A stretch of DNA of 64,000 bases from Phorcus lineatus (lineage: Eukaryota > Mollusca > Gastropoda > Trochida > Trochidae), in NCBI GenBank assembly GCA_921293015.1, contig OV121088.1, positions 6,075,882-6,139,881 on the forward strand, given 5' to 3'. The notes under the pieces were generated by a model that did no database searches, had not been told where the DNA came from, and saw nothing but the letters and a program-made list of their open reading frames with translations. Position 1 is the stretch's first letter; every line of letters starts with the position of its first letter. Positions 15,755 to 53,592 of this stretch are shown one piece after another. Both the position numbers and the translations under genes were made by a program.

Positions 15755-15778
15755 ATGGGCAACAAGTTAACAAGAACA
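15755..15778 (+). CDS. Gene 1 exon 1: MGNKLTRT, myristoylation-type start
   Basis: A 24-nt first coding exon: ATG GGC AAC AAG TTA ACA AGA ACA, then GTGAGT. It ends in phase 0, which fits the phase-0 acceptor at 16,704 (CAATTTTAG). A TATA-like string (TGTATATAATAG) ends some 10 bases before the ATG, too near to be a simple promoter for this ATG unless the leader is very short. A 5' UTR exon further upstream is possible. Block 2 lacks this exon because of a deletion. The exon is too short to prove without a transcript, but phase and motif agree. Confidence 0.55.
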
Positions 15779-18700
15779 GTGAGTAAAACAGTTTTTGTTT
15801 CATTTTAAAGTTTCTTTATTTAAATATATATGTAAAGATGTAACTTATTGAAACTACTTTGATATATATTTCCTTTTCTGCTGTATACATGCATACATTA
15901 AAATTTAAATTCATCTATGATGTCTCCCTATTAACCCTACCTTTCGTTGAATGTGTGAATGCTTTCAGTATAGTGTATGATGATTTGAACCCCGAGTAGT
16001 CAACAGAGAACATAGACAGTATCACATGCTCTATTTTACAGAGTTGGAACTTTTCAACTATCACAAAACAAAAATCACTTCATGTTAGTTATGAAGCATA
16101 AAATGATGTCTCGTCAGAGAAAACAGGACATCCTTTTGTCTAATCTGACATATGATATACAAGAAATCTATATCAAACTAACAAATGTTATTTAATGTAT
16201 TTAGTACGAACATGATAATGACATTTCACATATGCACAATGCTTAACAAAAGATGACATTTTTACATAATGAACATAAAATAAATACACAGATCTTATAA
16301 CAAAGGGGTTCCCTACTATCACACAATTAAGTTATTTAACGATCATTGAACACAGCAATGCTCATGATGACACTTCAATGGTCGTACTACTCACTATAAA
16401 ACGTACAAGTTTCAAATTGCTTTCAATAATGCTTGACTGATACACTATACTTACGGCAACCCTTTAAAACACAGTGCTCACGCTAAAACTTATATTACAA
16501 CGTACTTCAGTAACTATTTAATATGTGGAATCTTAACGATAATATGTTCCCATCGTACAACATCAAATCGATGTCGTGTAACACCTTTTTTTGTAGAATT
16601 TACATTTCCTTGAATCTTGAGCATGTGTATACATTACACTGTCATAGCTTAAAACTTTCAAATGTTCAACTTGACTCTGCTTTTATTTCATATCCAATTT
16701 TAGAGACCAAGAGTTGCTTACAGCCAACCCAACCCGTGGTTCCCCACACTGAATACACAAAATACCAATACACAACAGAACAATGTGGCTCAATCAAATA
16801 CCAACGTGTCTTCACCATATACCTTTACGAGAAATCAGCCAACAAATACCAGAAAGAAAGAAGGAACAATGAATAAACTAGAGGAGCAGTTGACGCCAGG
16901 AACAAGTATTTGTATCACATTCTATCCTTACCAATGTACACCGGCATCAGCTAAAATCTTTCTTGCAAGCGACGCTCTTGGTTCTGAAAACCTACAATAC
17001 CAGCCTTTCTTTGATGTGAATCTGGCGAGGGAGACTGAAGTCAGAATACGCTGTTCAAAGGATGGTTCCTTATTCTTCACTCAGAATGGTCCTGAACAGA
17101 AAATCAAAGAACAGGGAATCAATTTCCAAAGACCAGTGAATGTTATGTTGGAGTTGGAGAACTGTGTACATCAAGTGCGACAGACAAATGACGTGGAACT
17201 GTTGTACCTCCAGAATGTCGAAAAATTCGGTAAGAATACCAGAATTTAAAAAAACAATTCACAGATTTTATTAAGTTACAGGTATGTCTTCCCTTATACT
17301 CTCTTATACAAATGGAGGACTCTCCAGACTAAAAATATCAAATCTTGGTGGGGGTTTTTTCGAGTACAGACGATTAAAAATTAAAAATGTTTGGAGGTTC
17401 CCTCATATCAACCATAACAATTACGTGGTCAATGTAGCATCAAACCCTCTATACCGTACTCGTAGGTGTGGCATATGTTTAATTTTTACCTTACTTTTCC
17501 TGATGTAAACGACTTTTTCAAACCCCCGAGTTCGCCTCTGCCTCCGTGGATATTCTACAATTGTGTTGTAAATTCTGGCTAATCCTTTCCCTTTTTTAAG
17601 CAATTGGAACAATAGTCGCCGTAAGGCATACAATCCAAGCAAGTCTTAAGATAGGAATAACTTTCATGCGATACTTTTTCAAAACGAGTTTGATGATGAA
17701 TAACTACTTTCTCCTTAATCTTCAGAGGGTGCTCCTGAACCAGCCGGCATCTACCCAGGTAGGTTATCCATTTAAGTGATTGACTGTCACCAAAAAACAC
17801 TCAATATGACAGTACAAAAAGGCACCATTATCATTTATTACCCATGTGATTAATCATAAGTGATGACATATTTTCAATATGAGCACATGTGCACATATCA
17901 CTTTTGCCTAGCAACGATTGTTTCAGCGCGAGTTACCGTATTATGTCGTATGTGACGTCATCAAACCATTGTTCATGACGTCACTGAAGCGGGCGGCCGC
18001 AAAGAAAACAGGCCGCTTTCCGTGTGTTTTAAATGAAATAGAATCGGTAATAAAGAAATTATAACCCTCTGAAATTGTGTCATATGACTTTTTATGAAAA
18101 TCGTGCGAACTTGTATATAAGCCTCGCTCTCGCTCGGATAATACAAAAATTTGCACTCATTTCTTAAAAGTCATATGACACATTTACTCGGGTAATAATC
18201 TCTATAAGGTTTTGTTGATCAGAGCCTACTTGAACTAATTTGTAACAAAATTTGTAGCGGATTTAAGGCTGACAGTTTTAAGCATGATACCTTCTTTGGT
18301 AAATAACTTGCACGAAAAAGGAAGAAACAATTTGTATTTAATCTTTATAAATAATGCTTTGTTTAGGCCATTGAGGTCATTTAGGATTTAAATGTTTTCG
18401 TATTTTATGAATTATTTATTTGACATGAGCATCGTTTAAAGTTAAGTTTTCTTATCACATATTTTATTCTGAAATGACGATTAACCATTTTCTAAATCAC
18501 CTACTCTTATTTCAAATAGATGGTAAAAAATATATGTAGTCACTTTTTTCAAAGTAAAAATACTTTAAATTTTACTGCGAAAAAAGAACCTATGAATTCC
18601 GTAACATTTTGAAACTAGTTTTTAAAAAAAATTAATTGTTGACATACGCAAACACCTTATTCATCATTGGGTTTTTAGGGTACACAGAGAACAGAGAGAC

Positions 18701-21700
18701 GTTTGAAATCATGGAGCTTCTCCGGAACCAAGTCACTACAAAGGCCTTTCTCGGCGAACCTTTAACAAAGGGAAAGAAGTTCTACCTTCATGCGTCTCGT
18801 ATTAACCCAGCTGAGCCTTTTTTCATCCAAGTGTATGCCACCAACACTGCCCTACAAGATGTCGCTACAGAGGAGGTAACTCTAGTCCCATTTGACGTAA
18901 TCACACGTGTCGACAAGTGCATATCTGCGACAGTGATAAAACTGCGATGTACCAGGAATGGAGAGGTCGTGAGCAGTAGGGATCGTGAGGGAACAACGAA
19001 CGATATTGTTATGGATTATAACCATACTGGACTTAAAAAATTAATCGACTTGAAAAAGCCTCTTTACATCTTTGTTGAACTTCTAAACATGACCCTCAAT
19101 GTGATCCGTGCTGAAGACGGTGATATGAGGGACCTGGCACAGTGTATTCTACATGGTTGTTTAGGTAAGTTTTATCGTTAAAACTACGAGCATGGATATT
19201 ATTAAAGCGTCCATTTAACAAACAAAATGTTGTACTCTGTATAGCAACCATCTTTAACTCAATGATGTCATAATACGTTTATTTTGAAAGACCACAGTCA
19301 CAACATTTAGCTTCACCACTGGAATATTCTGTAGGTAATAATGCATCCATGCTTATACCTTTTACCTTTTAGAGCAATTTATCCTCAAACGCCAAGTAGA
19401 AATGCAAATGATTCAAAGAAATCAATATTTGATACTTTGTTTGTGACTTCCATCACAGTTGATGAAATTAAATGAGAACAAGTAATGTTTAAGTTATTTT
19501 ACTTCAACATCGTATCTATGAATTATTTAAAGGTACATAAAGATACATACCAAGTGGTAACTATAAAAAAATGTGTATGTCATCTTGACCGGACATAGTT
19601 GTATCAAATTCATCTGTCAGGCACCAACTGTGCTCTGAAATTTCCATGACTGCAAACTTCATCTCAGAAACCTTAAAGAAATGTTTACAGCTCTAATCTT
19701 GGACTTGCTGATCACTAATGTTTCAGATCGTATCGCTATTGAAGGGGAAAGAGAAATAAATCTCATTTGCGATGTCTCAATTAGCAATTGTTTTGGTATG
19801 TATGAAGTTAAACAATGAGGATTAATTCACAGTTGCTGTGTAACTTAATTAGAAAAAGTTGTGGAAGCACCTTTTTAATCGGAAAGGCATCTAACTAATT
19901 CATCAGTAAAATGATTTATCACTTTGCTGAATAACACATGCTATTTGTTTTACAGGAGGGGAATCATCACGCCCACCCCATCTGAGAACTGGTAAGTAAA
20001 CTGAATTTCAAAAGAAACTCTACATCTGACATTACAAAATATGTGAAGAATATTATAGTTTATGAACATTTAGACATCCGATGTGCCCTCGGAGTCCCGT
20101 TTTACTACATTAAATGCTAAAATATAAAGGGCTTCTTTGTCGGGTTGCTAGGCTATTAAAACAGGTACGTGATTTAAGATGATAAAACTAAACAAAGCTA
20201 AACTAAGTTTTTTTGGTTTTTTTATCACTTTATTTCTTTTTCTTGGGTACATATATGTTCATACAGAAATAGTTGCGTTTTCACAGTTTGGGTAAAAATA
20301 ATCATTTTAACATTTTTATATTTCTATGCATATGGTAAACATGTTTTAAGACTTACAATCAACATGTGAAGAGATTGTGGCAAGATGACCAGAATGTGAA
20401 GAACTTACCGTAATTACAGTTTGAAAAGGCAGTGTATTTGTCAGTATCATATAGGCTATGTAGATATTTTTTCAATCCAATAAAGTTCGGTATTGTCTTT
20501 AAATATCTCTTACCGTACATATAGTTTTTTGTTGCAATGATAATCAGATTAAGAACATTATTTCGTTTTTCTGAATATTCAAAAATGATATGTTTTTCAC
20601 TCAGATTTAGTTAAGTACCTGTTTTGTACTCAACCCAGTCTACAAAGTTATGCCACAATGTTTTCACATGTACACATTTATAGAATAAATAAATAATTGA
20701 TTCAGTTTCAACATTACAGAATGTAGAAGATGCAGATTCTAACATATTGTAGTTATACAGATCTTTGTTCGTTGTAATACATCTGTGTATTATTTTATAT
20801 TATAACCATCTCAGTTGAGTGGTAACTGTTGCTCTGAAAGGTATATAGTTATAAGTTTTCCCAGAGTTCATCTGTTATATCAACTTCTATATCCCTTTCC
20901 CATTTCACTTTGCTATTGAGTTTTGTTTTTAAAGTGTGTTTCTCAAGCAAGGTTGAGTAGAATATCTTGCAGCCTTTACGTTTTTTAAAGAGGATACGTA
21001 AATTATTAGGCATGGAAGGTTCTACTACTTTATAAAGAGCAAGCTGCTTCGAAACAAGATATGCTTTAGTTGAGTTGATGATACCTTGATTTTCTAAAAA
21101 GTTTGTATTAATATTGTAAATTGAAATAAAATTCTCATATGTGAAAAAGCTACCATCTGTATTTAGTAGATCGTTGAGGAATTTAACATTTTATTTCTAA
21201 TGGTTTTTATAGATAACAGGTTTTTTCCCTACAACTATATTATCGTTCGCCCATATATATTGTTTTGAAGTTTCGTTTTCAGTACCTTCATTTTTTTGTA
21301 AGGATGCTTGCCCATGATTCGTTAACATCTCTCCAAAAATACATTTTTAATATGCGGAATAACAGATTGTCTAAGATAGTTTGTTCCCATCTCAGTTGGA
21401 TGAAGGCCTTTTGTAGGAACGGCAAAACTGATAAGGTTTGAATTATTTGAATGTTTTACATATCTTCTTCGTAACCATGAAAGCTTTTGAGCTTGTATTG
21501 TTTCAAAAATCAGAGGTACCTTTAGCCCTCCATCTTTATAAGATTGAATTTCTTTTGATCTTATCAGGCTTTTCTTTCCATACAAATTTGAAAAAAATTT
21601 TCTGCAAATTTTGAATGGTATTATTATCTGGATTTGGTGAACAAATGGTTAAATGAAGGTAATATAAGACTTTTAAGAACAGTTATTCTACCAAATGGAG

Positions 21701-23786
21701 TAAGATCTCTTCTCAACCAACTTGCCATTGTTTTATCAAGATGTTTTAGTTTATCTTTATAGTTTCTTTCGACCATATCGGCCTGATTATGTTGGAACTG
21801 AATTCCAAATAAAGTGAAGGGTTTTTGAGACCAGTCTAGATTCAAAGTTGCTAAATGCTAAACTAAGTTGCTGAAGTTCTTCTAATATTGTCATTAGAAT
21901 CATTACAAAAGCTGTCAATGACACTGATATAAGTGTGTATGCGGGATGTATATGCTTTCGTGCAATTATCCGGAAAATAAACAAATCAGATTGAATATTC
22001 ATCATTAATTCTGATCACCTATTGACTTCTAATGTCAAATATAACATGTGGATTGCACCGTATGATACATTTGAATATGCATAACGTTATGATAATATTA
22101 CATTTGAAATCCATACGCTATGTAACTTAGACTAATAATTTAAAGCCTAAACATAAGGATATCCCTTGATCGCATTTGCCGTCGTTTTGCGAGTTAGTAA
22201 GTTTTACAGTTATAACCAGATAGAAACCAGATTTTATTTCCACGAACCTCTTTTTGTTTATCTTATTTCATCTTATTCTAAATATCCCCTGTTTAAGCAT
22301 CTGCAGCTCCGCCTCCCATAGAGAGACAAGGTAAGAATAGTTTGTATTTTCTACTTTAAAACATGTTTCATTGAAAAATCACTTCACGAGAAAGTAAGGA
22401 CTCATTCCAAAATTTTAAATGTTAAAGTATTTATCAGTATCATATTCTCGTTGGTATATCATTTCAGAATTGAGTATTGATTCGATTTTAACATATTTAT
22501 TGAGAAAGTTATTACGGTAACAGTAGAATACATGATAAAGTGAATACATACCTCAACTAAAGGGGATGTAAGCGGCTTCAGATGATTACCTTTGTCTCAC
22601 GACACATGCTCTAGCTCCTTACTACTCCTACTTCCTACGTAAGTGCTGTTCAAACTGGAGCAGTTTGTGGAATAAATAAAATTCTGACTTGATACAAGTT
22701 AACCAAATTGTTGAACCAAAATTATAGACTTGTGAATACACTATCAATCGATTTCTTTGAGAGGCATTCATAACTTGGTGATATGAATAGAGAACATGTT
22801 CTATAAAGTTTGATTGAGCAAGTGATAACGATATCGACACTGAAACTTCGCAGTCCTGCAATAACGAAGTTGTAAATCCATAGAATTTGTTCTCTATTCA
22901 CACTACCAATCGCGCGCTATCATTTATTTTCAGTTGGACGCCCTCGACTGCATTTCCTACAATATGCAGGTGAGTTTTTTAACCTCGATTGGGCTCAGTT
23001 AAAATGTGACGAAAAGCTGAGAGCATTATGTGAATGTGAATTGGAAAGTGTTAAGGAAGTTGACTTTATCGGTAAACTGATTTTTCAAAATAGAGTTGAA
23101 AGCACAATAGAAGTGGTGGCACTTAACTACAATTTCAAATTGTAAAAAAAAGTATATTATGTAACATATTCACAGCATAAAATTGGTGAATACGGGTCAT
23201 TGGTTGTGAAATTTTTCTTATTAAATCCGTCTCTTCCACTCTTCCCCTCTGTAAAAAACACAAATTGGTCATTTGTTGTATTACTTATTGCATCAAGTTT
23301 AGATTCAAATCTTTCAAAGACCTATCGATTATATTGTTTATGTCGGACACTTTGATGTATCATCCAAAAACAGATTTGTTACTGTCTTGTTGCTTGTTGC
23401 TCTCAGTGAAGTATATTGAAACAATCCTAAAAACTTTATATAGATTGTTGATTTTGGTTGGCTGATTTGAGAGATTTTCCAACGTCGAATGACAATGAAT
23501 ACCCTAGCTAGAGCGGATCACCATGTCAAATAATACATCATGTCGACATCATTCCGAACGACTTTGGATTTGAATATTTTGATTCTATTGATATCTAAGC
23601 CTTACTTAAATTTTACAGCTATCTATGATATTTTCTTAAATGCTTTAGGCTGTAGACTTTGTTAAATGATAATGAATCCCTGAAATTTTACAAACGCAAG
23701 TGTTCATAACATAAATAAAAGTATACCCTCTGATTTTAGGTTCATCTCGACCAATACAAGGAGCGGTTAATAATCAGCGCCACTAG
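15755..23786 (+). CDS. Gene 1: two-domain NHR-like protein with micro-exon tail
   Basis: Nine exons with GT-AG junctions and matching phases: 15755-15778, 16704-17229, 17726-17758, 18679-19164, 19727-19795, 19956-19991, 22307-22330, 22934-22969, 23740-23786. They give exactly 426 codons plus TAG. The start MGNKLT fits N-myristoylation (MGxxxS/T), suggesting a membrane-bound cytosolic protein. Residues about 50-165 and 205-335 form two related beta-rich domains. In both, a hydrophobic strand precedes a basic-Cys-x-(K/R)-x-G turn (IRCSKDGSLFFT; LRCTRNGEVVSS) and a later strand rich in L/V (RPVNVMLELEN; KPLYIFVELLN). This weakly recalls the Neuralized homology repeat, and human NEURL1 also starts MGN. 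No RING domain is seen. Residues 380-426 are a Pro/Arg-rich tail (SSRPPHLRTG, APPPIERQG, VGRPRLHFLQYAG). All junctions after exon 2 are phase 1, so exons could be skipped without a frameshift. The family name is unsure; the exon model is well supported by the block 2 paralogue. Confidence 0.7.
16704..17229 (+). CDS. Gene 1 exon 2: linker and first NHR-like domain
   Basis: A 526-nt exon after the acceptor CAATTTTAG, phase 0 in, phase 1 out (TTC G/GTAAGA). The first 50 residues are Asn/Gln/Thr-rich and likely disordered. The domain follows from about KLEEQLTPGTSICITFYPYQ, through ASDALGSENLQYQPFFDV and VRIRCSKDGSLFFTQNGPEQ, to RPVNVMLELENCVHQV. The block 2 exon (36,578-37,103) has exactly the same length and is about 80% identical by eye, with no frameshift, which implies the frame has been under constraint. 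The in-frame GTG at 16,785 corresponds to an ATG in gene 2, so neither is likely to be the true start. Confidence 0.8.
17726..17758 (+). CDS. Gene 1 exon 3: 33-nt micro-exon
   Basis: Bounded by ATCTTCAG and CCCAG/GTAGGT, phase 1 both sides. It encodes (E)GAPEPAGIYP, a flexible Pro-rich link between the two domains. The same exon with near-identical boundaries is at 37,586-37,618 in block 2. Confidence 0.65.
17953..17983. promoter_or_regulatory. Paired CRE octamers in gene 1 intron 3
   Basis: TGACGTCA occurs at 17,953-17,960 and 17,976-17,983, 23 bp apart, in a GC-richer stretch that also holds GCGGGCGGCCGC. The spacing of about two helical turns could suit cooperative CREB/ATF binding. It may mark an internal promoter or belong to a mobile element adjoining the inverted repeat at 18,077-18,181. 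The motif is exact; the function is inferred. Confidence 0.4.
18077..18181. repeat. 105-bp inverted repeat, MITE-like
   Basis: GTGTCATATGACTTTT at 18,077-18,092 is the perfect complement of AAAAGTCATATGACAC at 18,166-18,181. Each arm contains the palindrome GTCATATGAC. The loop holds CTCGCTCTCGCTCGG. No target duplication was identified. It lies in gene 1 intron 3 and was not found in gene 2. Confidence 0.75.
18679..19164 (+). CDS. Gene 1 exon 4: second NHR-like domain
   Basis: 486 nt, phase 1 in (TTTTTAG/GGTACA) and out (TTTAG/GTAAGT). It encodes residues 195-356. The domain runs from about TKAFLGEPLTKGKKFYLHAS and PFFIQVYATNTALQDV, through EEVTLVPFDVI and VIKLRCTRNGEVVSS, to KKPLYIFVELLNMTLNVIRA. 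The pattern (x-A-F-x-x-x-P-L-x-x-G at the start, C-x-x-x-G-x-V mid-domain, P-L-x-x-x-V-x-L at the end) is what suggests NHR, but conserved Trp and Gly positions expected of a classic NHR are not obvious. Gene 2 carries the same exon at 40,052-40,528 with three codons missing near the start and one nonsense codon. Confidence 0.75.
19727..19795 (+). CDS. Gene 1 exon 5, 69 nt
   Basis: Bounded by GTTTCAG and TTTTG/GTATGT, phase 1 both sides. It encodes DRIAIEGEREINLICDVSIS plus NCF. Gene 2 has a same-length exon at 40,942-41,010 (DRIDMEVERQVKHHCVNREY plus FHR). No domain was recognised; charged, probably a linker. Confidence 0.65.
19956..19991 (+). CDS. Gene 1 exon 6, 36 nt
   Basis: Bounded by TTTTACAG and AACTG/GTAAGT, phase 1 both sides, encoding (G)GESSRPPHLRT. 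The gene 2 exon at 42,075-42,110 reads GIESSRPPHLRT. The DNA is almost identical over the exon while the introns are not, which supports a real exon. Confidence 0.7.
20198..21990 (-). mobile_element. 5'-truncated non-LTR retrotransposon in gene 1 intron 6
   Basis: On the minus strand two frames encode the C-terminal part of a non-LTR reverse transcriptase and the region beyond. One reads NLDWSQKPFTLFGIQF and ASWLRRDLTPFGRITVLKSL (21,624-21,845). The other reads YKDGGLKVPLIFETIQAQKL and SWLRRR (21,322-21,585). These match the L-G-I-x-F, W-x-x-R-x-L-t-x-x-G-r-i and G-G-L-k-v-P motifs of L1/Tx1-type LINEs. The A-rich tail lies near 20,205-20,235 (T-rich on the plus strand). GCTAAACTAAGTT recurs exactly at 20,198-20,210 and 21,857-21,869 and may be the target duplication. 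LINE-like sequence may continue to about 21,985, where homology with the gene 2 intron resumes. Frameshifts make it inactive. Confidence 0.75.
22307..22330 (+). CDS. Gene 1 exon 7: 24-nt micro-exon APPPIERQ
   Basis: Bounded by GCATCTGCAG and CAAG/GTAAGA, phase 1 both sides. It encodes (G)APPPIERQ, a Pro-rich eight-residue piece that could bind SH3- or WW-type modules. It is the exon amplified five times in gene 2 (44,534; 46,282; 48,030; 49,778; 51,526). The polypyrimidine tract is modest, so inclusion may be regulated. Confidence 0.65.
22934..22969 (+). CDS. Gene 1 exon 8: 36-nt micro-exon VGRPRLHFLQYA
   Basis: Bounded by ATTTTCAG and GCAG/GTGAGT, phase 1 both sides. In gene 2 it is VGRPRIQFPQYA and occurs once in each of the five tandem units. 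Basic and aromatic; no known motif beyond that. Confidence 0.65.
23740..23786 (+). CDS. Gene 1 last exon
   Basis: After the acceptor CTGATTTTAG the frame reads GSSRPIQGAVNNQRH and stops at TAG 23,784-23,786. The gene 2 exon (53,519-53,592) reads on for nine more residues before TGA, so the two C-termini differ. No close AATAAA is seen; one at about 24,484 is a distant candidate. Confidence 0.55.
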
Positions 23787-34222: not shown

Positions 34223-34229
34223 TATATAT

Positions 34230-34286: not shown

Positions 34287-34289
<3 letters not shown>

Positions 34290-36577: not shown

Positions 36578-37103
36578 AGACCAGGAGTCGCTTACAGCAA
36601 ACTCAAGCCGTGGTTCCAAACCCTGATTACACAAAATACCAATAAACAACACACCACTATGGCTTCACCATATACCAACGTGTCTTCACAAAATACCGAT
36701 ACAATAATTCAGACAACAAACACTACCAAGAAACAAGGTACAATAACAAAACTCGAGAAGCAGTTGACACAAGGAACGAGTCTTTGGATCACATTCTACC
36801 CATTCCTATTAACACCGGCAACAGCTGAAATCTCTCTTGCAAGCGATGAACTTGGTTCTGAAAACTTACAATACCAGTCCTTCTTTGATGTGAGCGTAGC
36901 GAAAGAGACAGAGGTCAGAATACGCTGTTCAAAGGATGGTTCCTTATTCTTCACGAATAATGGCCCTGAACAGAAAATCAAAGAACAAGAAATCAATTTC
37001 CAAAGACCGGTGAATGTTATGTTGAAACTTAAGAACTGTGTACATCAAGTGCAACAGACACATGATGTGGAACTGTTGTACCTCCAGAATGTCGAAAAAT
37101 TCG
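36578..37103 (+). CDS. Gene 2 first recognised exon: NHR-like domain 1
   Basis: 526 nt, the same length as the gene 1 exon. Acceptor ATTTTCAG, donor TTCG/GTAAGA. It reads RPGVAYSKLKPWF, then a low-complexity linker, then the domain: LWITFYPFLLTPATAEISLA, SENLQYQSFFDV, VRIRCSKDGSLFFTNNGPEQ and RPVNVMLKLKNCVHQV. The in-frame ATG at 36,659 could act as a start if no upstream exon exists. Differences from gene 1 are mostly single substitutions with no frameshift. Confidence 0.7.
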
Positions 37104-37179
37104 GTAAGAATACCAGAATTATCAAAACAATTCACACACGTTACTAGGTTACAGAGCTATGTCTTCCCTCTTCTTCTCT

Positions 37180-39990: not shown

Positions 39991-40051
39991 CATTTACAAA
40001 CAAGTAGTTTTGAATTGTTTAATTACACCTGATTCAACATTGGATCTTTAG

Positions 40052-40528
40052 GGTACAGAGAGACGTTTGAAATCATGGAGCTTCTACAGAACCAAAACAC
40101 TGTGAAGGCCTTTCTTTGCGAACCTTTAACAAAGGGTAAGGAGTTCTACCTTCATGCGAATCGTATCAACCCAGCCGAGCCTTTTTTCATCCTATTCTAT
40201 GCCACCAGCACTGACCTACAAGATGTTGCTACAGGGGAGGTAACTCTAGTCCCATTTGAGATGATAAGAAATGAGGATAAGAGGACAATACAGACAAAGA
40301 TAAAACTGTGATGTACCAGGAATCACGAGGTCGTGAGCAGTAAGCTTTTTCAGGGAATAAAGAAATATTTTGTTATGAATTATTACTCTACTGGATTTAA
40401 AAAATTGATCGACTTGGAAAAGCCAATTTACATTTTTGTTGAACTTCTAAACATGAACCTCACTGTGATCCGTGCTGTAGACAGTGATGTGCGGGACCAT
40501 GCACAGTGTATTCTACATGATCAGTTAG
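40052..40528 (+). pseudogene. Gene 2 NHR-like domain 2 exon with in-frame TGA
   Basis: 477 nt, phase 1 in and out like gene 1. It reads GYRETFEIMELLQNQNTVKA and continues to TGEVTLVPFEMI and TKIKL, then TGA (40,309-40,311), then CTRNHEVVSS, then LIDLEKPIYIFVELLNMNLT. The stop replaces the Arg of L-R-C; CGA to TGA is the usual outcome of CpG deamination. Nothing suggests selenocysteine use. If translated, the protein would end mid-domain; skipping the exon (a multiple of 3) would restore the frame. Confidence 0.75.
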
Positions 40529-41203: not shown

Positions 41204-42027
41204 GGAGATAAACCTATTGTGTTTTTAATTTTTTGTGATTCGAAGGTAGATTCGAAACCTGTTGAATTTTTTCGGAGCCGAACGCGTAAAAATATAAAAT
41301 CAACAGGTTATTCAGCTACGTTCGAATCACAAAAAATTAAAAACACAATTGGTTTATCTCCATTCTACCATGACGAGTTAATAAACTTTTAAATTACATT
41401 TCTTTGATGTCGCGAAAGTTCAGGCGTGAAGCGGTCATAGGCATTTCCATTTGAGGAAGCTATAATGGTTAACGCCTAATCTAACTTTGAAGTGAAAAGA
41501 TAGAGTAGGGAGCGTTAAAAATCACATAATTGTCAAGTAAACACGATATAGCATTGAGTTTGTCTTGACACTCATGACGCTGGCACAAAGGATGACAATT
41601 TGACAAAAAGTACTGAATCACCTCCAACGAAATGGCCGATACCAAATTCCTTTAGCTGATCACATGGCCAGTCTTGTGACGTCACGTCACACTGCACAAG
41701 GCTGTGAAGTCACTGTGTTAGAATGAAAACTATCGTTGCCGAGTCTGATCATCGCGGCTTGAAATCAAACGTTTTCCTCATTAATGCTAGTAATAGACTG
41801 TTTATAAAAGCCTGAAGAAGTATGTATGCCTAATGGTAATTGGTAACATCAGACTATCAAAAGCACGTTTTAATCATGTTTAGCGGAAGTGCTGTTACGT
41901 CTCTTCTTTGCATCGAGCCTTCGGACGATGTATTCGTCATTCGGCTGTCTAAAAATCGTGTTCGAACGTAGATTCGACGATGAAATAAACCAACCAAATA
42001 AAGGTTTTTAAAATGTCATGGTAGAAT
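41204..42027. mobile_element. MITE-like insertion(s) in a gene 2 intron
   Basis: The gene 2 intron 41,011-42,074 is 1,064 bp while its gene 1 counterpart is 160 bp; the excess is roughly 41,195-42,027. It holds two nested structures. One is an inverted repeat at 41,204-41,361 (arms starting GGAGATAAACC and running through GTGTTTTTAATTTTTTGTGA). The other is a pair of 13-bp inverted termini, ATTCTACCATGAC at 41,362-41,374 and GTCATGGTAGAAT at 42,015-42,027. TGACGTCA occurs at 41,677-41,684 with overlapping ACGTCAC. No coding frame was seen. Confidence 0.7.
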
Positions 42028-42954
42028 GATTATTTATCAGTTTCTGTATGACATAGACATTGTTTATTTCACAGGCATAGAATCATCACGCCCACCCCAT
42101 CTGAGAACTGGTAAGTTAACTGACGTTTAACAGAAAAGTAACACCTGACAATAATAGCATACGTAAAAAATGTTTGTCACATCACTGAAACATATTGTCA
42201 TGCAGATGAATTATTCGACAAGCAGATCGACAAAAGCAAACTAGCTTGATTGAAAATAAATGGTGGCATGGCGATCATCTACAGGGCGGTGAAATATTCA
42301 ATTGAAACTCAAAAGATTTGAAACCTCGATAAACTTTCAGAAAGATCAAATTCTGAATTGATAACATATGTCCTTGGTATAGACCAAGATGCATACATCT
42401 CTTCATTGAAGTGTTATTTGTCTGTAACGTTGGGAGTAATCTGCTACTTCGTGAGAGCTGGCTCCACATGTTTGACGAGTTGGCTGTCTGATATGTCAAT
42501 CGTGGTGGCCCCAGAAGTCTTAAGTGTTTTATATATCAGGAAGACATTGTTACACATACTGTTTCCACGTTTTGCAAATGTGTACCATGTCTGTGTGTCA
42601 GAAAAATCATGGGTCCTGTATGTTTTCCTTATCCAAAACACCGGACCAAAGACCGCCGCCTGCAGCGACCCCTATGTGTTTTGCTATAGACGTTGTAGTT
42701 GATGTACATTAAGGGAGCGGATTTGCCCTTAGAGTCCCGTTTTAATGCATATAATTCTAACAAATAAAGGGGGATTCGGGTGTTCGTGACTTTTAATCCA
42801 GGGAAAAACAAAAAATTACCTTGAATATCAATTGTTTCTGATCACCAAATGTCTTGAATGCGAAAAATACAATCCGTCTTGGATCGTATGATCTTTGTCA
42901 ATAGTAATAACGTTATGATGCTTATACATTTGAAATCCGTATGTTATTAAATAA

Positions 42955-44415
42955 ACTCTTCAAAAAAAGACACTTGACATTCATGCGAAATAGATTTTTT
43001 CGAAACGGGTCATTTCATTTCATAATACATGCCTGTAATTTAAAGAAAGTCTTGCTCAAAAGTGTAAATTTACCAAAAACAATGGCCCAAAATCGTTACG
43101 TTGTGTTCAGGGACGAAATCGAGCGATTCGTCCAAATGCATTTTCGGCCAGAGCACGTGCAGCACGTGCAGCATGGGATCATGAAGGTTTACATGCAGAC
43201 ACGTCTGCTTTAGGGGTATAAAAAGCCATATCAGCCGCTGTTTATTCAGACTACACAACATCGGTACAGCGACCTGAAGAATGCCAAGACTGAACTCAGC
43301 GCAACGCAACAACGCTATTGGCAGACTGCAAGCAGGAGCGACGCAGCGAGATGTTGCAACACACTTTGGCGTGTCCAGACAGACCATCTCTTCGTTGTGG
43401 ACTCGTTTCAACACCCGAAACAGCGTTGATGCTAGGCCAAGGTCAGGCAGACCAAGGGTGACTACTCGGGCACAAGATCGGTACATCCGACTGCTCCACC
43501 TTCGGGAACGCACCAGGACAGCAACGTCAAAAACAACGCAGATACCAGGCCTGCGTCGAATTTCCGACCAAACGGTACGCAACAGGCTGAGAGAGGCTGG
43601 ATTTTTTCCACGACGACTGGTTCGACGTCCCATTTTAACGCAACGTCATCTGGCGGAACGTCTCCAGTGGTGTCAACAGAGGATGAGATGGGCACGTGCA
43701 AGGTGGAGAACCGTTCTCTTCACTGATGAGTCGTGTTTTCTGCTTCGACGAAGTGATGGACGAGCACGTGTATACCGACGTCATAGAGAACGTTATGCTG
43801 CCAACTGTGTTCAGGAGGTTGTCCCATTTGGAGGTGGGAGTGTCATGGTGTGGGCCAGGATTCGTCACGGTGTAAGGACACCCTTTGTGCATGTTGTGGG
43901 TAACCTAGCTCACAGGAGTACAGTATAGGGACTTGATCCTACAGCCTTACGTAACTCCTCACGTCAACGTCCATGGTGGTCTCTTTCAGCAGGACAGCTC
44001 GACCACATGTTGCACGTGTTTGTCAAGACTTTTTTACAGCGTAACAATGTCCAGACATTGCCATGGCCAGCCAGGTCACCAGATTTTCACCAATTGAGCA
44101 TCTCTGGGACGAACTGGATCGACGCGTGCGCAGAAGGAAGCCATCACCCCAAACACTTCTAGGACTTCTTGCAGCACGAATGGCAGAACATTCCACAGGC
44201 TGTGATTGACAACTTGATTGCATCCATGGGTCGTCGGTGCACCCCTGTGATGTTAACACTTGTGCACCTGTGCATTTCAAGATCATGCTTATTCTGAATA
44301 AGATTTACTGAACAGAGATCTTCAAAAAGCGTTTTAGTTTTCTTTTCAATGTTTGCATCTGTGGTCTTTATATTGAACTTTGAAAGTCAGTGTCAAGTTT
44401 CTTTTTTTGAAGAGT
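42955..44415 (+). mobile_element. Tc1/mariner-like element, transposase decayed
   Basis: The inverted termini ACTCTTCAAAAAAAGACACT (42,955 on) and its complement ending at 44,415 agree over 25 bp with one mismatch. Inside, 43,281-43,928 encodes the N-terminal two thirds of a Tc1-like transposase: MPRLNSAQRNNAIGRLQAGA with a helix-turn-helix (RDVATHFGVSRQTISSLW), a second HTH with SGRPRVTTRAQD, then TDES (first catalytic Asp) and GGGSVMVWA. Later frames still show GLFQQDSS (second Asp region, normally QQDNARPH) and WPARSPDF, then IEHLWDELDRRVRR, but frameshifts separate them. The usual TA target duplication is not found on both sides, and the right terminus touches the tandem array. Confidence 0.88.
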
Positions 44416-47400
44416 GGAGTGTGTTTTAGTGCAACTAACCCAGAAAAACATAGGATAATCTTATTTCTACTAAGCTCTATTTGTTTATATCTGTTTAATC
44501 TATTTCAAATATCATCTGTTAAAGCATATGCAGCTCCGCCCCCTATAGAGAGACAAGGTAAGACGAGTTTGTATGTTCTGCTTTAAAAACATGATTTTTC
44601 GAAATCTCATCCCAAATTTTTTATTTTGAACTATTATGCAGTATTATATACTTATCAATTTCAGGAGTTACCATTGGTATGATATTTAACTTTATTTGAG
44701 AAAACATAAAGATAATAGTAGGGCACATGATCAAGTGAATACATACCTCAACTAAAGGGGATGTGAGCGGCTTCAGGTCGATTGCCAGTGTCTCATACAA
44801 ATGCTCCTTCCCACAGGAAGCAGTTTGTAGACGTAATTATATAAGGAACAAAATCTGTTTTGTTGCAATTAGACTTCATTGTTCAACACTTATATGAAAC
44901 GATGACGCTCGCTAACATTAATTTGCAGTCGGACGTCCTCGAATACAGTTCCCGCAATATGCAGGTGAGTTTCAAACTCCAACTTCGCTATTTATTCACA
45001 GTTTAAATTTGATAAAAGGCCGGGAGCATTTTATAAGTTTCAATGGGAATGTTGTAGGGTATTTCCCATGTCGGTAAATAGATGCATGTTTTGATAATAA
45101 GAAAGGACACACTTTAACATAATTTAATTTGTAAAACAGGTAAATTACTGACAGTATAAAATTGGGTTTAGTAAAACAGTTAATGGTTATATATATCTTT
45201 AATAGGTTATGAAATAATTATCATTAGATCCTTCTCTTCGATTTAGCGAATAATTATCAATGTATTGTTTTGTATTGAAAATGACAAGTGGCCTTCTTAT
45301 CATTGGACTGTCTATTCATCAAATGTGTATTGCATTTTTGAGTTATGCTGTTAAAGTGACTTCCCTGGGTGAATAACACAAAATATGTATTTGTCTTCTT
45401 AGAGGTTGCATCAACTGTTAGATTTAAATCTTTCAACACCTAAATTTTATGTCGCTTAAGCTGTTGTAACATCCAAAAACAAATTGGCTACTGCCTTGTC
45501 ATTTCCCATAGCTTTGGCTATGCTTTCCGTGAAGTATACTAAAATAATCCTAAGGTATGTATAGTCAGAAATTTTATTAACAATTGTAACATGACTTTGA
45601 TGGATCCTTCATTCTGATTGGCTGATTTGAAAGATTCCCCATATACGTCGAATGGCAGTGTACCAAAAGTTTGTTCACATATCTGAAAATACTGTGCAAA
45701 TATCATATAATTTGAGATGCCTTTGAGGCATGGTAGTGTTGCGAAAAAGGAAACGTATAATATTTCAATAAACATATGCAGATCCATTCTTCTTTAAGAC
45801 AAAGGTTTATTGTACCCCACAATCATAGTAACAGTTAAGGTAGGTCATTGAAGTGACCAGGGGTCAAAACTCTGAAAACACTAATTTGTATTTTTCTCAA
45901 TAAAATCCTTTTTAAATTATCAACTTCTTTGAAATAAGTCACGTTTGTTTCTTAGCACAAAGTCAATGTAATTATGTTGGTTTTAATCTCAGAGAGTCGA
46001 TATGGAACATTTTATTCGCAACTAACGAAATCGAAATTTGTGACCCCTTCTGTTTAAATCAATATGCCAAAATTCGAATATTTGCACGAGTGACCAGACA
46101 ATGCCAAATTGAGTTCAAGAATGGCTATGTCACACATGGACAATCGGAAGTGGAGTGGAGAGTGGAGTGTGTTTTAGTGCAACTAACCCAGAAAAACATA
46201 GGATAATCTTATTTCTACTAAGCTCTATTTGTTTATATCTGTTTAATCTATTTCAAATATCATCTGTTAAAGCATATGCAGCTCCGCCCCCTATAGAGAG
46301 ACAAGGTAAGACGAGTTTGTATGTTCTGCTTTAAAAACATGATTTTTCGAAATCTCATCCCAAATTTTTTATTTTGAACTATTATGCAGTATTATATACT
46401 TATCAATTTCAGGAGTTACCATTGGTATGATATTTAACTTTATTTGAGAAAACATAAAGATAATAGTAGGGCACATGATCAAGTGAATACATACCTCAAC
46501 TAAAGGGGATGTGAGCGGCTTCAGGTCGATTGCCAGTGTCTCATACAAATGCTCCTTTCCACAGGAAGCAGTTTGTAGACGTAATTATATAAGGAACAAA
46601 ATCTGTTTTGTTGCAATTAGACTTCATTGTTCAAAACTTATATGAAACGATGACGCTCGCTAACATTAATTTGCAGTCGGACGTCCTCGAATACAGTTCC
46701 CGCAATATGCAGGTGAGTTTCAAACTCCAACTTCGCTATTTATTCACAGTTTAAATTTGATAAAAAGCCGGGAGCATTTTATAAGTTTCAATGGGAATGT
46801 TGTAGGGTATTTCCCATGTCGGTAAATAGATGCATGTTTTGATAATAAGAAAGGACACACTTTAACATAATTTAATTTGTAAAACAGGTAAATTACTGAC
46901 AGTATAAAATTGGGTTTAGTAAAACAGTTAATGGTTATATATATCTTTAATAGGTTATGAAATAATTATCATTAGATCCTTCTCTTCGATTTAGCGAATA
47001 ATTATCAATGTATTGTTTTGTATTGAAAATGACAAGTGGCCTTCTTATCATTGGACTGTCTATTCATCAAATGTGTATTGCATTTTTGAGTTATGCTGTT
47101 AAAGTGACTTCCCTGGGTGAATAACACAAAATATGTATTTGTCTTCTTAGAGGTTGCATCAACTGTTAGATTTAAATCTTTCAACACCTAAATTTTATGT
47201 CGCTTAAGCTGTTGTAACATCCAAAAACAAATTGGCTACTGCCTTGTCATTTCCCATAGCTTTGGCTATGCTTTCCGTGAAGTATACTAAAATAATCCTA
47301 AGGTATGTATAGTCAGAAATTTTATTAACAATTGTAACATGACTTTGATGGATCCTTCATTCTGATTGGCTGATTTGAAAGATTCCCCATATACGTCGAA

Positions 47401-50400
47401 TGGCAGTGTACCAAAAGTTTGTTCACATATCTGAAAATACTGTGCAAATATCATATAATTTGAGATGCCTTTGAGGCATGGTAGTGTTGCGAAAAAGGAA
47501 ACGTATAATATTTCAATAAACATATGCAGATCCATTCTTCTTTAAGACAAAGGTTTATTGTACCCCACAATCATAGTAACAGTTAAGGTAGGTCATTGAA
47601 GTGACCAGGGGTCAAAACTCTGAAAACACTAATTTGTATTTTTCTCAATAAAATCCTTTTTAAGTTATCAACTTCTTTGAAATAAGTCACGTTTGTTTCT
47701 TAGCACAAAGTCAATGTAATTATGTTGGTTTTAATCTCAGAGAGTCGATATGGAACATTTTATTCGCAACTAACGAAATCGAAATTTGTGACCCCTTCTG
47801 TTTAAATCAATATGCCAAAATTCGAATATTTGCACGAGTGACCAGACAATGCCGAATTGAGTTCAAGAATGGCTATGTCACACATGGACAATCGGAAGTG
47901 GAGTGGAGAGTGGAGTGTGTTTTAGTGCAACTAACCCAGAAAAACATAGGATAATCTTATTTCTACTAAGCTCTATTTGTTTATATCTGTTTAATCTATT
48001 TCAAATATCATCTGTTAAAGCATATGCAGCTCCGCCCCCTATAGAGAGACAAGGTAAGACGAGTTTGTATGTTCTGCTTTAAAAACATGATTTTTCGAAA
48101 TCTCATCCCAAATTTTTTATTTTGAACTATTATGCAGTATTATATACTTATCAATTTCAGGAGTTACCATTGGTATGATATTTAACTTTATTTGAGAAAA
48201 CATAAAGATAATAGTAGGGCACATGATCAAGTGAATACATACCTCAACTAAAGGGGATGTGAGCGGCTTCAGGTCGATTGCCAGTGTCTCATACAAATGC
48301 TCCTTCCCACAGGAAGCAGTTTGTAGACGTAATTATATAAGGAACAAAATCTGTTTTGTTGCAATTAGACTTCATTGTTCAAAACTTATATGAAACGATG
48401 ACGCTCGCTAACATTAATTTGCAGTCGGACATCCTCGAATACAGTTCCCGCAATATGCAGGTGAGTTTCAAACTCCAACTTCGCTATTTATTCACAGTTT
48501 AAATTTGATAAAAAGCCGGGAGCATTTTATAAGTTTCAATGGGAATGTTGTAGGGTATTTCCCATGTCGGTAAATAGATGCATGTTTTGATAATAAGAAA
48601 GGACACACTTTAACATAATTTAATTTGTAAAACAGGTAAATTACTGACAGTATAAAATTGGGTTTAGTAAAACAGTTAATGGTTATATATATCTTTAATA
48701 GGTTATGAAATAATTATCATTAGATCCTTCTCTTCGATTTAGCGAATAATTATCAATGTATTGTTTTGTATTGAAAATGACAAGTGGCCTTCTTATCATT
48801 GGACTGTCTATTCATCAAATGTGTATTGCATTTTTGAGTTATGCTGTTAAAGTGACTTCCCTGGGTGAATAACACAAAATATGTATTTGTCTTCTTAGAG
48901 GTTGCATCAACTGTTAGATTTAAATCTTTCAACACCTAAATTTTATGTCGCTTAAGCTGTTGTAACATCCAAAAACAAATTGGCTACTGCCTTGTCATTT
49001 CCCATAGCTTTGGCTATGCTTTCCGTGAAGTATACTAAAATAATCCTAAGGTCTGTATAGTCAGAAATTTTATTAACAATTGTAACATGACTTTGATGGA
49101 TCCTTCATTCTGATTGGCTGATTTGAAAGATTCCCCATATACGTCGAATGGCAGTGTACCAAAAGTTTGTTCACATATCTGAAAATACTGTGCAAATATC
49201 ATATAATTTGAGATGCCTTTGAGGCATGGTAGTGTTGCGAAAAAGGAAACGTATAATATTTCAATAAACATATGCAGATCCATTCTTCTTTAAGACAAAG
49301 GTTTATTGTACCCCACAATCATAGTAACAGTTAAGGTAGGTCATTGAAGTGACCAGGGGTCAAAACTCTGAAAACACTAATTTGTATTTTTCTCAATAAA
49401 ATCCTTTTTAAGTTATCAACTTCTTTGAAATAAGTCACGTTTGTTTCTTAGCACAAAGTCAATGTAATTATGTTGGTTTTAATCTCAGAGAGTCGATATG
49501 GAACATTTTATTCGCAACTAACGAAATCGAAATTTGTGACCCCTTCTGTTTAAATCAATATGCCAAAATTCGAATATTTGCACGAGTGACCAGACAATGC
49601 CGAATTGAGTTCAAGAATGGCTATGTCACACATGGACAATCGGAAGTGGAGTGGAGAGTGGAGTGTGTTTTAGTGCAACTAACCCAGAAAAACATAGGAT
49701 AATCTTATTTCTACTAAGCTCTATTTGTTTATATCTGTTTAATCTATTTCAAATATCATCTGTTAAAGCATATGCAGCTCCGCCCCCTATAGAGAGACAA
49801 GGTAAGACGAGTTTGTATGTTCTGCTTTAAAAACATGATTTTTCGAAATCTCATCCCAAATTTTTTATTTTGAACTATTATGCAGTATTATATACTTATC
49901 AATTTCAGGAGTTACCATTGGTATGATATTTAACTTTATTTGAGAAAACATAAAGATAATAGTAGGGCACATGATCAAGTGAATACATACCTCAACTAAA
50001 GGGGATGTGAGCGGCTTCAGGTCGATTGCCAGTGTCTCATACAAATGCTCCTTCCCACAGGAAGCAGTTTGTAGACGTAATTATATAAGGAACAAAATCT
50101 GTTTTGTTGCAATTAGACTTCATTGTTCAACACTTATATGAAACGATGACGCTCGCTAACATTAATTTGCAGTCGGACGTCCTCGAATACAGTTCCCGCA
50201 ATATGCAGGTGAGTTTCAAACTCCAACTTCGCTATTTATTCACAGTTAAAATTTGATAAAAAGCCGGGAGCATTTTATAAGTTTCAATGGGAATGTTGTA
50301 GGGTATTTCCCATGTCGGTAAATAGATGCATGTTTTGATAATAAGAAAGGACACACTTTAACATAATTTAATTTGTAAAACAGGTAAATTACTGACAGTA

Positions 50401-53139
50401 TAAAATTGGGTTTAGTAAAACAGTTAATGGTTATATATATCTTTAATAGGTTATGAAATAATTATCATTTGATCCTTCTCTTCGATTTAGCGAATAATTA
50501 TCAATGTATTGTTTTGTATTGAAAATGACAAGTGGCCTTCTTATCATTGGACTGTCTATTCATCAAATGTGTATTGCATTTTTTAGTTATGCTGTTAAAG
50601 TGACTTCCCTGGGTGAATAACACAAAATATGTATTTGTCTTCTTAGAGGTTGCATCAACTGTTAGATTTAAATCTTTCAACACCTAAATTTTATGTCGCT
50701 TAAGCTGTTGTAACATCCAAAAACAAATTGGCTACTGCCTTGTCATTTCCCATAGCTTTGGCTATGCTTTCCGTGAAGTATACTAAAATAATCCTAAGGT
50801 CTGTATAGTCAGAAATTTTATTAACAATTGTAACATGACTTTGATGGATCCTTCATTCTGATTGGCTGATTTGAAAGATTCCCCATATACGTCGAATGGC
50901 AGTGTACCAAAAGTTTGTTCACATATCTGAAAATACTGTGCAAATATCATATAATTTGAGATGCCTTTGAGGCATGGTAGTGTTGCGAAAAAGGAAACGT
51001 ATAATATTTCAATAAACATATGCAGATCCATTCTTCTTTAAGACAAAGGTTTATTGTACCCCACAATCATAGTAACAGTTAAGGTAGGTCATTGAAGTGA
51101 CCAGGGGTCAAAACTCTGAAAACACTAATTTGTATTTTTCTCAATAAAATCCTTTTTAAATTATCAACTTCTTTGAAATAAGTCACGTTTGTTTCTTAGC
51201 ACAAAGTCAATGTAATTATGTTGGTTTTAATCTCAGAGAGTCGATATGGAACATTTTATTCGCAACTAACGAAATCGAAATTTGTGACCCCTTCTGTTTA
51301 AATCAATATGCCAAAATTCGAATATTTGCACGAGTGACCAGACAATGCCAAATTGAGTTCAAGAATGGCTATGTCACACATGGACAATCGGAAGTGGAGT
51401 GGAGAGTGGAGTGTGTTTTAGTGCAACTAACCCAGAAAAACATAGGATAATCTTATTTCTACTAAGCTCTATTTGTTTATATCTGTTTAATCTATTTCAA
51501 ATATCATCTGTTAAAGCATATGCAGCTCCGCCCCCTATAGAGAGACAAGGTAAGACGAGTTTGTATGTTCTGCTTTAAAAACATGATTTTTCGAAATCTC
51601 ATCCCAAATTTTTTATTTTGAACTATTATGCAGTATTATATACTTATCAATTTCAGGAGTTACCATTGGTATGATATTTAACTTTATTTGAGAAAACATA
51701 AAGATAATAGTAGGGCACATGATCAAGTGAATACATACCTCAACTAAAGGGGATGTGAGCGGCTTCAGGTCGATTGCCAGTGTCTCATACAAATGCTCCT
51801 TCCCACAGGAAGCAGTTTGTAGACGTAATTATATAAGGAACAAAATCTGTTTTGTTGCAATTAGACTTCATTGTTCAACACTTATATGAAACGATGACGC
51901 TCGCTAACATTAATTTGCAGTCGGACGTCCTCGAATACAGTTCCCGCAATATGCAGGTGAGTTTCAAACTCCAACTTCGCTATTTATTCACAGTTTAAAT
52001 TTGATAAAAAGCCGGGAGCATTTTATAAGTTTCAATGGGAATGTTGTAGGGTATTTCCCATGTCGGTAAATAGATGCATGTTTTGATAATAAGAAAGGAC
52101 ACACTTTAACATAATTTAATTTGTAAAACAGGTAAATTACTGACAGTATAAAATTGGGTTTAGTAAAACAGTTAATGGTTATATATATATTTAATAGGTT
52201 ATGAAATAATTATCATTAGATCCTTCTCTTCGATTTAGCGAATAATTATCAATGTATTGTTTTGTATTGAAAATGACAAGTGGCCTTCTTATCATTGGAC
52301 TGTCTATTCATCAAATGTTTATTGCATTTTTGAGTTATGCTATTAAAGTGACTTCCCTGGGTGAATAACACAAAATGTGTATTTGTCTTCTTAAAGGTTG
52401 CATCAACTGTTAGATTTAAATCTTTCAACACCTAAATTTTATGTCGCTTAAGCTGTTGTAACATCCAAAAACAAATTGGCTACTGCCTTGTCATTTCCCA
52501 TAGCTTTGGCTATGCTTTCCGTGAAGTATACTAAAATAATCCTAAGGTCTGTATAGTCAGAAATTTTATTAACAATTGTAACATGACTTTGATGGATCCT
52601 TCATTCTGATTGGCTGATTTGAAAGATTCCCCGTATACGTCGAATGGCAGTGTACCAAAAGTTTGTTCACATATCTGAAAATACTGTGCAAATATCATAT
52701 AATTTGAGATGCCTTTGAGGTATGGTAGTGTTGCGAAAAAGGAAACGTACAATATTTCAATAAACATATGCAGATCCATTCTTCTTTAAGACAAAGGTTT
52801 ATTGTACCCCACAATCATAGTAACAGTTAAGGCAGGTCATTGAAGTGACCAGGGGTCAAAACTCTGAAAACACTAATTTGTATTTTTCTCAATAAAATCC
52901 TTTTTAAGTTATCAACTTCTTTGAAATAAGTCACGTTTGTTTCTTAGCACAAAGTCAATGTAATTATGTTGGTTTTAATCTCAGAGAGTCGATATGGAAC
53001 ATTTTATTCGCAACTAACGAAATCGAAATTTGTGACCCCTTCTGTTTAAATCAATATGCCAAAATTCGAATATTTGCACGAGTGACCAGACAATGCCAAA
53101 TTGAGTTCAAGAATGGCTATGTCACACATGGACAATCGG
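44412..53139 (+). repeat. Five tandem 1,748-bp units amplifying gene 2 exons
   Basis: Exact spacing of 1,748 bp links all copies. Each unit contains the 24-nt exon APPPIERQ (44534, 46282, 48030, 49778, 51526) and the 36-nt exon VGRPRIQFPQYA (44929, 46677, 48425, 50173, 51921), both with intact splice sites and phase 1. A further open frame starts at 45956, 47704, 49452, 51200 and 52948. Units are nearly identical; single-base differences exist (copy 3 changes Arg to His in the second exon at 48,430-48,432). If all exons are used, the tail gains five repeats of 20 residues where gene 1 has one. The left limit coincides with the Tc1 terminus; the right limit is CAATCGG at 53,139. The minus-strand frames that recur in every unit have no domain and are by-products. 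Confidence 0.93.
45956..46206 (+). CDS. Candidate third exon in array unit 1: divergent NHR-like half-domain
   Basis: After an acceptor-like GTTTGTTTCTTAG the frame completes a codon in phase 1, as the other exons require. It reads AQSQCNYVGFNLRESIWNIL, FATNEIEICDPFCLNQYAKI, RIFARVTRQCQIEFKNGYVT and HGQS. This resembles domain 2 of gene 1 (FIQVYATN...LVPFDVI...VIKLRCTRNGEVVSS). The frame runs over the unit junction (SEVEWRVECVLVQLTQKNIG) to TAA at 46,204. The same frame is open in all five units (47704-47954, 49452-49702, 51200-51450, 52948-53162; the last has a different end, SVIYCQTC). Copies 2 and 3 have Arg for Gln at one site. No good phase-1 donor is seen, so it would be a terminal exon or a relic. 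Confidence 0.45.
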
Positions 53140-53518
53140 TGATCTATTGTCAGACTTGCTAAAGTTATTATTTTGACGTTGAATCGAAACCCAAATTACG
53201 TGATATTTGCACTACGATTCAGTGGTAAGTGAACAAACTTTCGGTGTGCAGCTGTATATCTGAAAATTAGGCAGAATGAAACATCGCGAAATACATTCAG
53301 ACAGACTTAAGATTCAAATGCTCTAAATATGTTGATATATTAGCCTTACTTATATTTTACAGTTATCATTGATAATTTCTCAAATACGTTAATATGTAGA
53401 CATCACAAATTATTCTCAATATTATTTGCCTAAAAGGCATAAATTTGCGGATGTGGAACAAATATATCCCGGAAATTTTACAAACGCATTTAATTATTGT
53501 GTATACATTCTGATTTAG

Positions 53519-53592
53519 GTGCACCTCAACCAAAGCAAGAAGCTGTTAACATTCAGCGCCCAAAGTTATCCGAGAATAAATCCTCCAAGTGA
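53519..53592 (+). CDS. Gene 2 last exon
   Basis: After TTCTGATTTAG the phase-1 frame reads GAPQPKQEAVNIQRPKLSEN plus KSSK and ends at TGA 53,590-53,592. It aligns with gene 1's last exon (GSSRPIQGAVNNQRH), whose stop comes nine codons earlier. If the TGA at 40,309 is real, this exon is untranslated in the full-length transcript. Confidence 0.55.

Follow-up and report, generated by a model that had tools for sequence, protein, structure and literature searches.

Background

Several described systems share features with the locus studied here, and the comparisons made below refer to excerpts of the cited reports. The kringle IV type 2 (KIV-2) repeat of human LPA has a 5.6-kb unit with two exons (160 and 182 bp) that encode a folded domain, and it is translated and present in 1 to over 40 copies per allele (PMC6314250). 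The micro-exon genes of schistosomes consist for the most part of symmetric exons no longer than 36 bp, and the duplication of one of their micro-exons has been ascribed to break repair after transposable-element insertion (PMC8293314). With regard to break repair, templated insertions, generally under 25 bp, mark joining by polymerase theta, and worm germ cells require this enzyme for the mutagenic repair of breaks at transposons (PMC12426944). The present analysis concerns a five-unit tandem array carrying two micro-exons per unit inside one predicted gene of the gastropod Phorcus lineatus (Mollusca; Trochidae). The window, that is, the whole stretch of DNA analysed, comprises 64,000 nucleotides (assembly GCA_921293015.1, contig OV121088.1, positions 6,075,882 to 6,139,881 of the forward strand), and all coordinates below are window positions. 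It holds two paralogues, gene 1 and gene 2, and the array lies in gene 2. Its origin at the end of a transposon is well supported. No report of this locus was found in the literature searched, in which it was sought without the species name.

Structure of the array

A repeat search delimited five head-to-tail units of 1,748 bp between positions 44411 and 53139, their starts being spaced by 1748, 1748, 1748 and 1748 bp. Over the same interval, the identity at a lag of 1748 is unbroken by indels, and the comparison of the array with itself by BLAST yielded four alignments of 99.25-99.59% identity. A chance origin of the repeat was rejected given five copies at constant spacing and the indel-free lag identity. 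The five-unit array is thus confirmed in the assembled sequence, the unit number being read from one assembly; the tandem-repeat finder covers periods of up to 500 only, and the 1,748-bp array falls outside its range. Units 1 to 4 are full length and unit 5 is devoid of the junction bases, so that the array amounts to 4 x 1748 + about 1736 bp. The array and its exons, E7 and E8, are the following:

44411..53139, forward strand: tandem array of five units, period 1748 bp, 0 indels (repeat search, lag identity, unit comparison)
44534..44557, forward strand: E7 of unit 1, 24 nt, phase 1/1 (whole-genome pattern search; acceptor gcag and donor gtaaga shared with gene 1)
46282-46305, 48030-48053, 49778-49801 and 51526-51549, forward strand: E7 of units 2-5
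44929..44964, forward strand: E8 of unit 1, 36 nt, phase 1/1 (unit comparison, joined translation)
46677-46712, 48425-48460 (R>H), 50173-50208 and 51921-51956, forward strand: E8 of units 2-5

Both exons occur in all five units with lengths divisible by 3 and GT/AG borders, their phase 1 being derived from the joined translation. Together they encode a 20-residue module, APPPIERQVGRPRIQFPQYA, in which H replaces the second R in unit 3. Gene 1 holds a single pair (22307-22330 and 22934-22969). When E7 with its borders was searched for in the whole genome (957,807,699 bases in 74 contigs) with up to three mismatches, six places were found, one in gene 1 and five in gene 2, and the reversed control pattern gave 0 matches. 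E7 differs between the genes at two sites, both synonymous, and E8 at seven. A sequence-only reading of the window, made before this analysis, had already proposed the exact 1,748-bp unit repeated five times, the two phase-1/phase-1 micro-exons of 24 and 36 nt in each, the 20-residue module and the single pair of gene 1. The repeat search, unit comparison and joined translation bear out this description of the array, but three features described below had escaped it: the transposon at the left edge, the second element in which the right breakpoint falls and the identical filler of the four internal junctions.

Variation among the units is limited to 26 of the 1748 columns. Seven of them are at boundaries (one at the transposon edge and six at the end of unit 5) and the other 19 are substitutions in the unit body. 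Units 1 to 5 have respectively 1, 1, 1, 3 and 9 private body changes, and four sites are shared by two units. Over 1,732 positions, 3-8 differences separate units 1-4 from one another and 12-13 separate unit 5 from any of them, the comparisons with unit 1 taking in one boundary site. The nine private changes of unit 5 are confined to 644 bp (P 0.002, random placement) and no simple tree accommodates the shared variants (units 2+3, 1+2 and 1+4), which together suggest exchange or conversion between units. A single body variant out of 19 lies inside the repeated exons, namely the missense CGT>CAT (R>H) in the 36-nt exon of unit 3.

The array consists of near-identical head-to-tail units containing whole phase-compatible exons within one gene, and as an exon-pair array it is of the LPA KIV-2 type. 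As in LPA, tandem multi-kilobase units carry two exons each inside one gene and their number is encoded in the genome; unlike in LPA, the exons are of 24 and 36 nt and lie behind a stop (PMC6314250). As in the schistosome micro-exon genes, the exons are short and symmetric and can be added or dropped in frame; a further likeness is that the schistosome products are partly disordered and rich in Thr/Ser/Pro. Yet the central coding part of those genes is mostly made up of micro-exons, and the excerpts of the reports do not mention a five-fold near-identical array (PMC8293314, PMC4671649). Symmetric exons of at most 36 bp do not make up the main part of gene 1: five of its nine exons are small (E1 24, E3 33, E6 36, E7 24 and E8 36 nt), and two exons (526 + 486 nt) make up 1012 of its 1281 coding bases.

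Edges of the array and junctions between units

The array starts at one mobile element and ends inside another:

42955..44415, forward strand: Tc1-like DNA transposon in intron 6 of gene 2 (25-nt inverted ends, 24/25 match; Tc3-type helix-turn-helix)
52655..53256, no strand assigned: dispersed repeat of ~600 bp resembling a miniature inverted-repeat transposable element (MITE), with inverted ends (78% over 54 nt; genome search, inverted-end comparison)
46148..46158, forward strand: 11-nt filler AAGTGGAGTGG at the unit 1/2 junction (unit comparison)
47896, 49644 and 51392 (starts), forward strand: the same filler AAGTGGAGTGG at the other three internal junctions (unit comparison)

The left element shows the inverted ends, the Tc3-type helix-turn-helix of the transposase and the TA at the insertion that characterize Tc1-like transposons, the TA of the window copy being present on the left side only. 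Its longest open frame has 216 amino acids, compared to up to 336 in 20 relatives. The genome contains at least 40 Tc1-like copies, including this one, and the 20 compared here are the best-scoring among the 39 others that cover both ends. TTA directly follows the right end in 17 of these 20 and TAA directly precedes the left end in 16; of the three copies devoid of TTA, two still show a TA in the three bases that follow, unlike the third. In the window copy, TAA precedes the left end but GGAGTG follows the right one, and the terminal T and the TA are consequently gone on the right. It is in the final five bases of the transposon that the repeat begins. An alignment examined by eye indicates that ~50-70 bp of the gene 1 flank have no counterpart beside the transposon in gene 2.

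At the other edge, the MITE-like element is complete in unit 5 only, the right breakpoint of the array (53139) falling inside it, and units 1-4 carry a shortened copy. This element has at least 35 other genomic places at 87-88% identity (40 of 3,901 candidates scored). All four internal junctions read CAATCGG-AAGTGGAGTGG-AGAGTGGAGTGTG, in which the filler is followed by AGAGT and then by GGAGTG. Since AGAGT corresponds to the last five bases of the transposon and is kept at the junctions, the transposon was present before the duplication. Likewise, the breakpoint within the MITE-like element and the transposon letters at the junctions imply that both elements predate it, and the identity of the four junctions implies a single founding event.

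The filler and the 47-nt flank at the transposon end share the exact 9-mer AGTGGAGTG. In a control made of the window 11-mers at every third position outside the flank, with the junction words and the T-rich words matching the T run included, 55 of 21,314 (0.26%) matched the flank as well or better. The filler has the form expected from templated end joining by polymerase theta, for which it is suggestive, not proof. The resemblance to the joining of Tc1-excision breaks by this enzyme lies in a short filler for which the flank of the break served as template; unlike in those studies, only the scar is seen here, the involvement of the enzyme and of a break being putative, and a tandem duplication resulted (PMC12426944). 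The P1-wr cluster of maize offers another parallel, as it consists of near-perfect head-to-tail units distinguished by single-base differences and adjoins a p2/p1 hybrid gene in which filler DNA marks a repaired break. It differs in that its eleven units are whole 12-kb genes rather than intragenic exon pairs and in that its filler sits in that hybrid gene instead of at every junction between units (PMC2686159).

State of the gene that carries the array

The gene models are predictions built on paralogue comparison, splice sites and open frames. Gene 2 was modelled from exon 2 to exon 9 (36578-53592), and the following features are needed for its comparison with gene 1:

15755..23786, forward strand: gene 1, the paralogue with one E7/E8 pair (nine-exon model, open frame of 426 amino acids; start exon 15755-15778)
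36578..37103, forward strand: exon 2 of gene 2, open, counterpart of the gene 1 exon modelled as a galectin-like fold (dN/dS vs gene 1 about 0.45-0.51)
40052..40528, forward strand: exon 4 of gene 2, phase 1/1, interrupted by the TGA (dN/dS vs gene 1 about 1.0)
40309..40311, forward strand: in-frame TGA in exon 4 of gene 2, CGA in gene 1 (gene-model comparison)
42075..42110, forward strand: exon 6 of gene 2, 36 nt, phase 1/1 (gene model)
53519..53592, forward strand: last coding exon of gene 2, GAPQPKQEAVNIQRPKLSENKSSK and then a stop (gene model)

Exon junctions are in phase 1, except that between exons 1 and 2 (phase 0), and each exon from E3 to E8 can therefore be removed without a frameshift. 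The two genes agree at 1003 of the 1196 aligned bases of exons E2-E8 (84%), and 14 intron flanks of 100 nt each range from 54 to 84%. Exon 5 is exceptional, with 72% nucleotide identity, a downstream flank at 84% and 27% amino-acid identity over 22 codons.

Two lines of evidence suggest that gene 2 is damaged. The TGA of exon 4 is located upstream of every unit of the array, and the frame that starts in exon 2 ends after 272 codons, ahead of E5. An mRNA with a stop far 5' of later exon junctions is normally a target of nonsense-mediated decay. In addition, the paralogue alignment did not reveal a gene 2 counterpart of the gene 1 start exon, and the nine ATGGGN sites listed from 29901 to 36560 all differ from the MGNKLTRT of gene 1, the nearest one giving MGNDRNGK at 30288 and then a stop. 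Gene 2 matches gene 1 until 15631 and then resembles it from 15931 (gene 2 positions 30387-30427, E 0.001), a jump in which the stretch of the start exon would be deleted; the score of this arm was reached by 1 of 2000 random placements, in a control range that takes in the target. The deletion of the start exon is possible, not proven. Given the upstream TGA and the start exon not found, a normal transcript would end before the tail, and the array would be reachable only through a new start combined with the skipping of exon 4. As the micro-exons of gene 2 lie 3' of an in-frame stop, they most likely add nothing to a protein at present. Exon 4 displays nearly equal rates of nonsynonymous (dN) and synonymous (dS) substitution between the genes, 0.19 and 0.18.

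Several observations nevertheless speak against a gene that is simply dead. Exon 2 is open, with dN 0.14 and dS 0.28-0.31 (dN/dS 0.45 by NG86 and 0.51 by YN00), and E6-E8 retain 87% amino-acid identity with a dN/dS of 0.31, calculated on 31 codons with few changes. GT donors are kept in E2-E8 and AG acceptors in E2-E9. Exon 4 contains one stop and 0 frameshifts, and its phase 1/1 makes skipping in frame possible. The start exon may also be merely hidden: a match with a lower E value (3.6e-4, 66% over 79 nt) puts gene 1 positions 15792-15870, directly behind the start exon, at 34211-34287 in gene 2, a segment that also matches in reverse, and the global alignment placed the second arm differently. 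The constraint on exon 2, the intact splice borders and the single stop of exon 4 suggest that the inactivation of gene 2 is recent or partial.

Origin and possible function of the array

The preferred explanation, which we consider probable, is a young intragenic tandem duplication, extending from intron 6 into intron 8 of a damaged gene copy, that was founded at the transposon end and carried the micro-exons along because they lie between the breakpoints. The right end of the transposon would have suffered a double-strand break through failed or one-sided excision, and repair of this break by end joining of the polymerase-theta type would have produced the templated filler. The MITE breakpoint on one chromatid would have been joined to the transposon end on another, giving the first head-to-tail duplication, and homologous unequal exchange and conversion between copies would then have led to five units. 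E7 and E8 would be inherited, phase-neutral exons of the family. Some observations sit uneasily with this sequence of events. One of the 20 compared Tc1-like copies (L015) is also devoid of the right TA and reads GTGGATAG there; this copy may perhaps represent another right-end break, but the loss of the right TA and the duplication could also be separate events. Moreover, the filler is short and its control rate of 0.26% is non-negligible.

Other scenarios may account for the array. Replication slippage or ordinary unequal exchange could have made the duplication and the transposon at its edge could be coincidental, as tandem duplications with short fillers also arise without transposons; the second breakpoint falls in a MITE-like repeat whose many copies would be able to recombine. 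This seems doubtful, since the edge coincides with the five terminal bases of a transposon whose right TA and last T are gone and the two breakpoints share no long homology, as judged by eye. Insertion of the Tc1-like element after the array had formed is highly improbable. Transposons do land in repeats, but Tc1-like elements insert at TA, which is missing from the right end in the window, where 17 of the 20 compared copies show TTA, and the AGAGT at the same place in the internal junctions refutes a simple late insertion unless it is there by chance. Long near-identical repeats are also the classic setting for artefacts, so that the animal could have fewer units, multiplied by the assembler or by the mixing of haplotypes. 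We regard this as very unlikely: looping would generate identical copies, whereas each unit has at least one private substitution and unit 5 is the most divergent, and for a diploid to yield five distinct sequences, one chromosome must carry three units or more, unless errors account for some of the private changes.

The alternative to micro-exons as passengers of a break-founded duplication is that gene 2 is expressed and that its protein has 1 to 5 tail modules of 20 residues, set by splicing or by the allelic unit number. The sequence-only reading favored such a working copy-number-tunable tail. It would fit with the phase 1/1 exons and GT/AG borders of all five units, the exclusively synonymous differences of E7 with gene 1, the 84% identity of E2-E8, above most of the intron flanks, and the possibility of skipping exon 4 in frame. 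Yet the TGA at 40309-40311 precedes all units, the search for a start exon in gene 2 was negative, exon 5 shows little conservation, and the one exonic variant among the 19 of the unit body is missense, meaning that, within these tiny numbers, the repeated exons are not visibly protected. The array is therefore unlikely to act as a tunable tail, and the earlier proposal is not supported on this point. The same reading's statement that most exon repeats are domain-sized overlooks the schistosome micro-exon genes (PMC8293314). A bolder version appears quite unlikely: the break at the transposon end would have created a heritable, expandable cassette, and gene 2, through a new start and the skipping of exon 4, would make galectin-fold proteins with a Pro/Arg-rich tail of 1 to 5 modules, the unit number differing between individuals.

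Other features of the gene family and the window

The predicted structure of the gene 1 exon 2 domain corresponds to a galectin beta-sandwich fold (VIA-align comparison). At the sequence level, no galectin family was found for it in Pfam (E up to 1, E up to 10), nor any galectin among its PDB sequence matches. The domain of exon 4 resembles that of exon 2 weakly in sequence (4 of 1000 shuffles reach the same level), and its structure model, made from one sequence, is too poor for a fold (mean predicted local distance difference test score, pLDDT, 41.1). Exon 2 has 2 places in the genome. A large family with many tails was considered and is not seen for exon 2 (2 places) or E7 (6 places).

Between E7 and E8, a 30-mer is identical in gene 1 (22540-22569) and in all five units:

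44735..44764, no strand assigned: intronic 30-mer of unit 1 (identity of gene 1 vs five units; genome search)

The whole-genome search with up to three mismatches found no further place for it, and over 46 columns around it the genes differ at 2 sites, fewer than in the exons. It may perhaps be a poison exon or a splicing element. The 30-mer ends at a possible donor (GGGGAT-GTRAGC), which with an upstream TTTCAG would delimit an exon of 98-100 nt with a stop in both genes, as seen by eye. A 12-nt extra exon between E7 and E8 (TTTCAG-GAGTTACCATTG-GTATGA) looked possible in gene 2 and was rejected, since by eye gene 1 has no donor there.

Several further elements were observed. Frames for a FLYWCH zinc finger (above the Pfam cut-off) and a MULE transposase (just below it) at 31730-33135 occupy the region expected for the start exon of gene 2. 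A reverse transcriptase (Pfam RVT_1, 38627-39811) lies in intron 3 of gene 2, between exons 3 and 4, and an inverted repeat of ~160 bp (41204-41361, 78% by self-BLAST), perhaps a MITE, lies in intron 5. Positions 60750-62546 contain a third copy of parts of the 3' region of the family, similar to 24524-25497 and 53771-55075 (69-72% identity); this is perhaps the remnant of a third gene copy, and a reverse-transcriptase frame (59536-60816) adjoins it. No Rfam RNA was detected in the window at the gathering score.

Implications

This locus combines micro-exons, an array of five nearly identical units and an origin at a transposon end that can still be read, and as such it is a good example and not a new kind of system. 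It represents a clean and young case of the founding of an intragenic exon array, in which the transposon end, the filler, the breakpoint in a second element and the scars of exchange can still be read. It also calls for caution, as exons repeated in frame need not equal a repeated part of a protein, and here the gene copy harboring them appears damaged 5' of the array. Should transcripts show the opposite, the array would be a short-linear-motif counterpart of LPA KIV-2.

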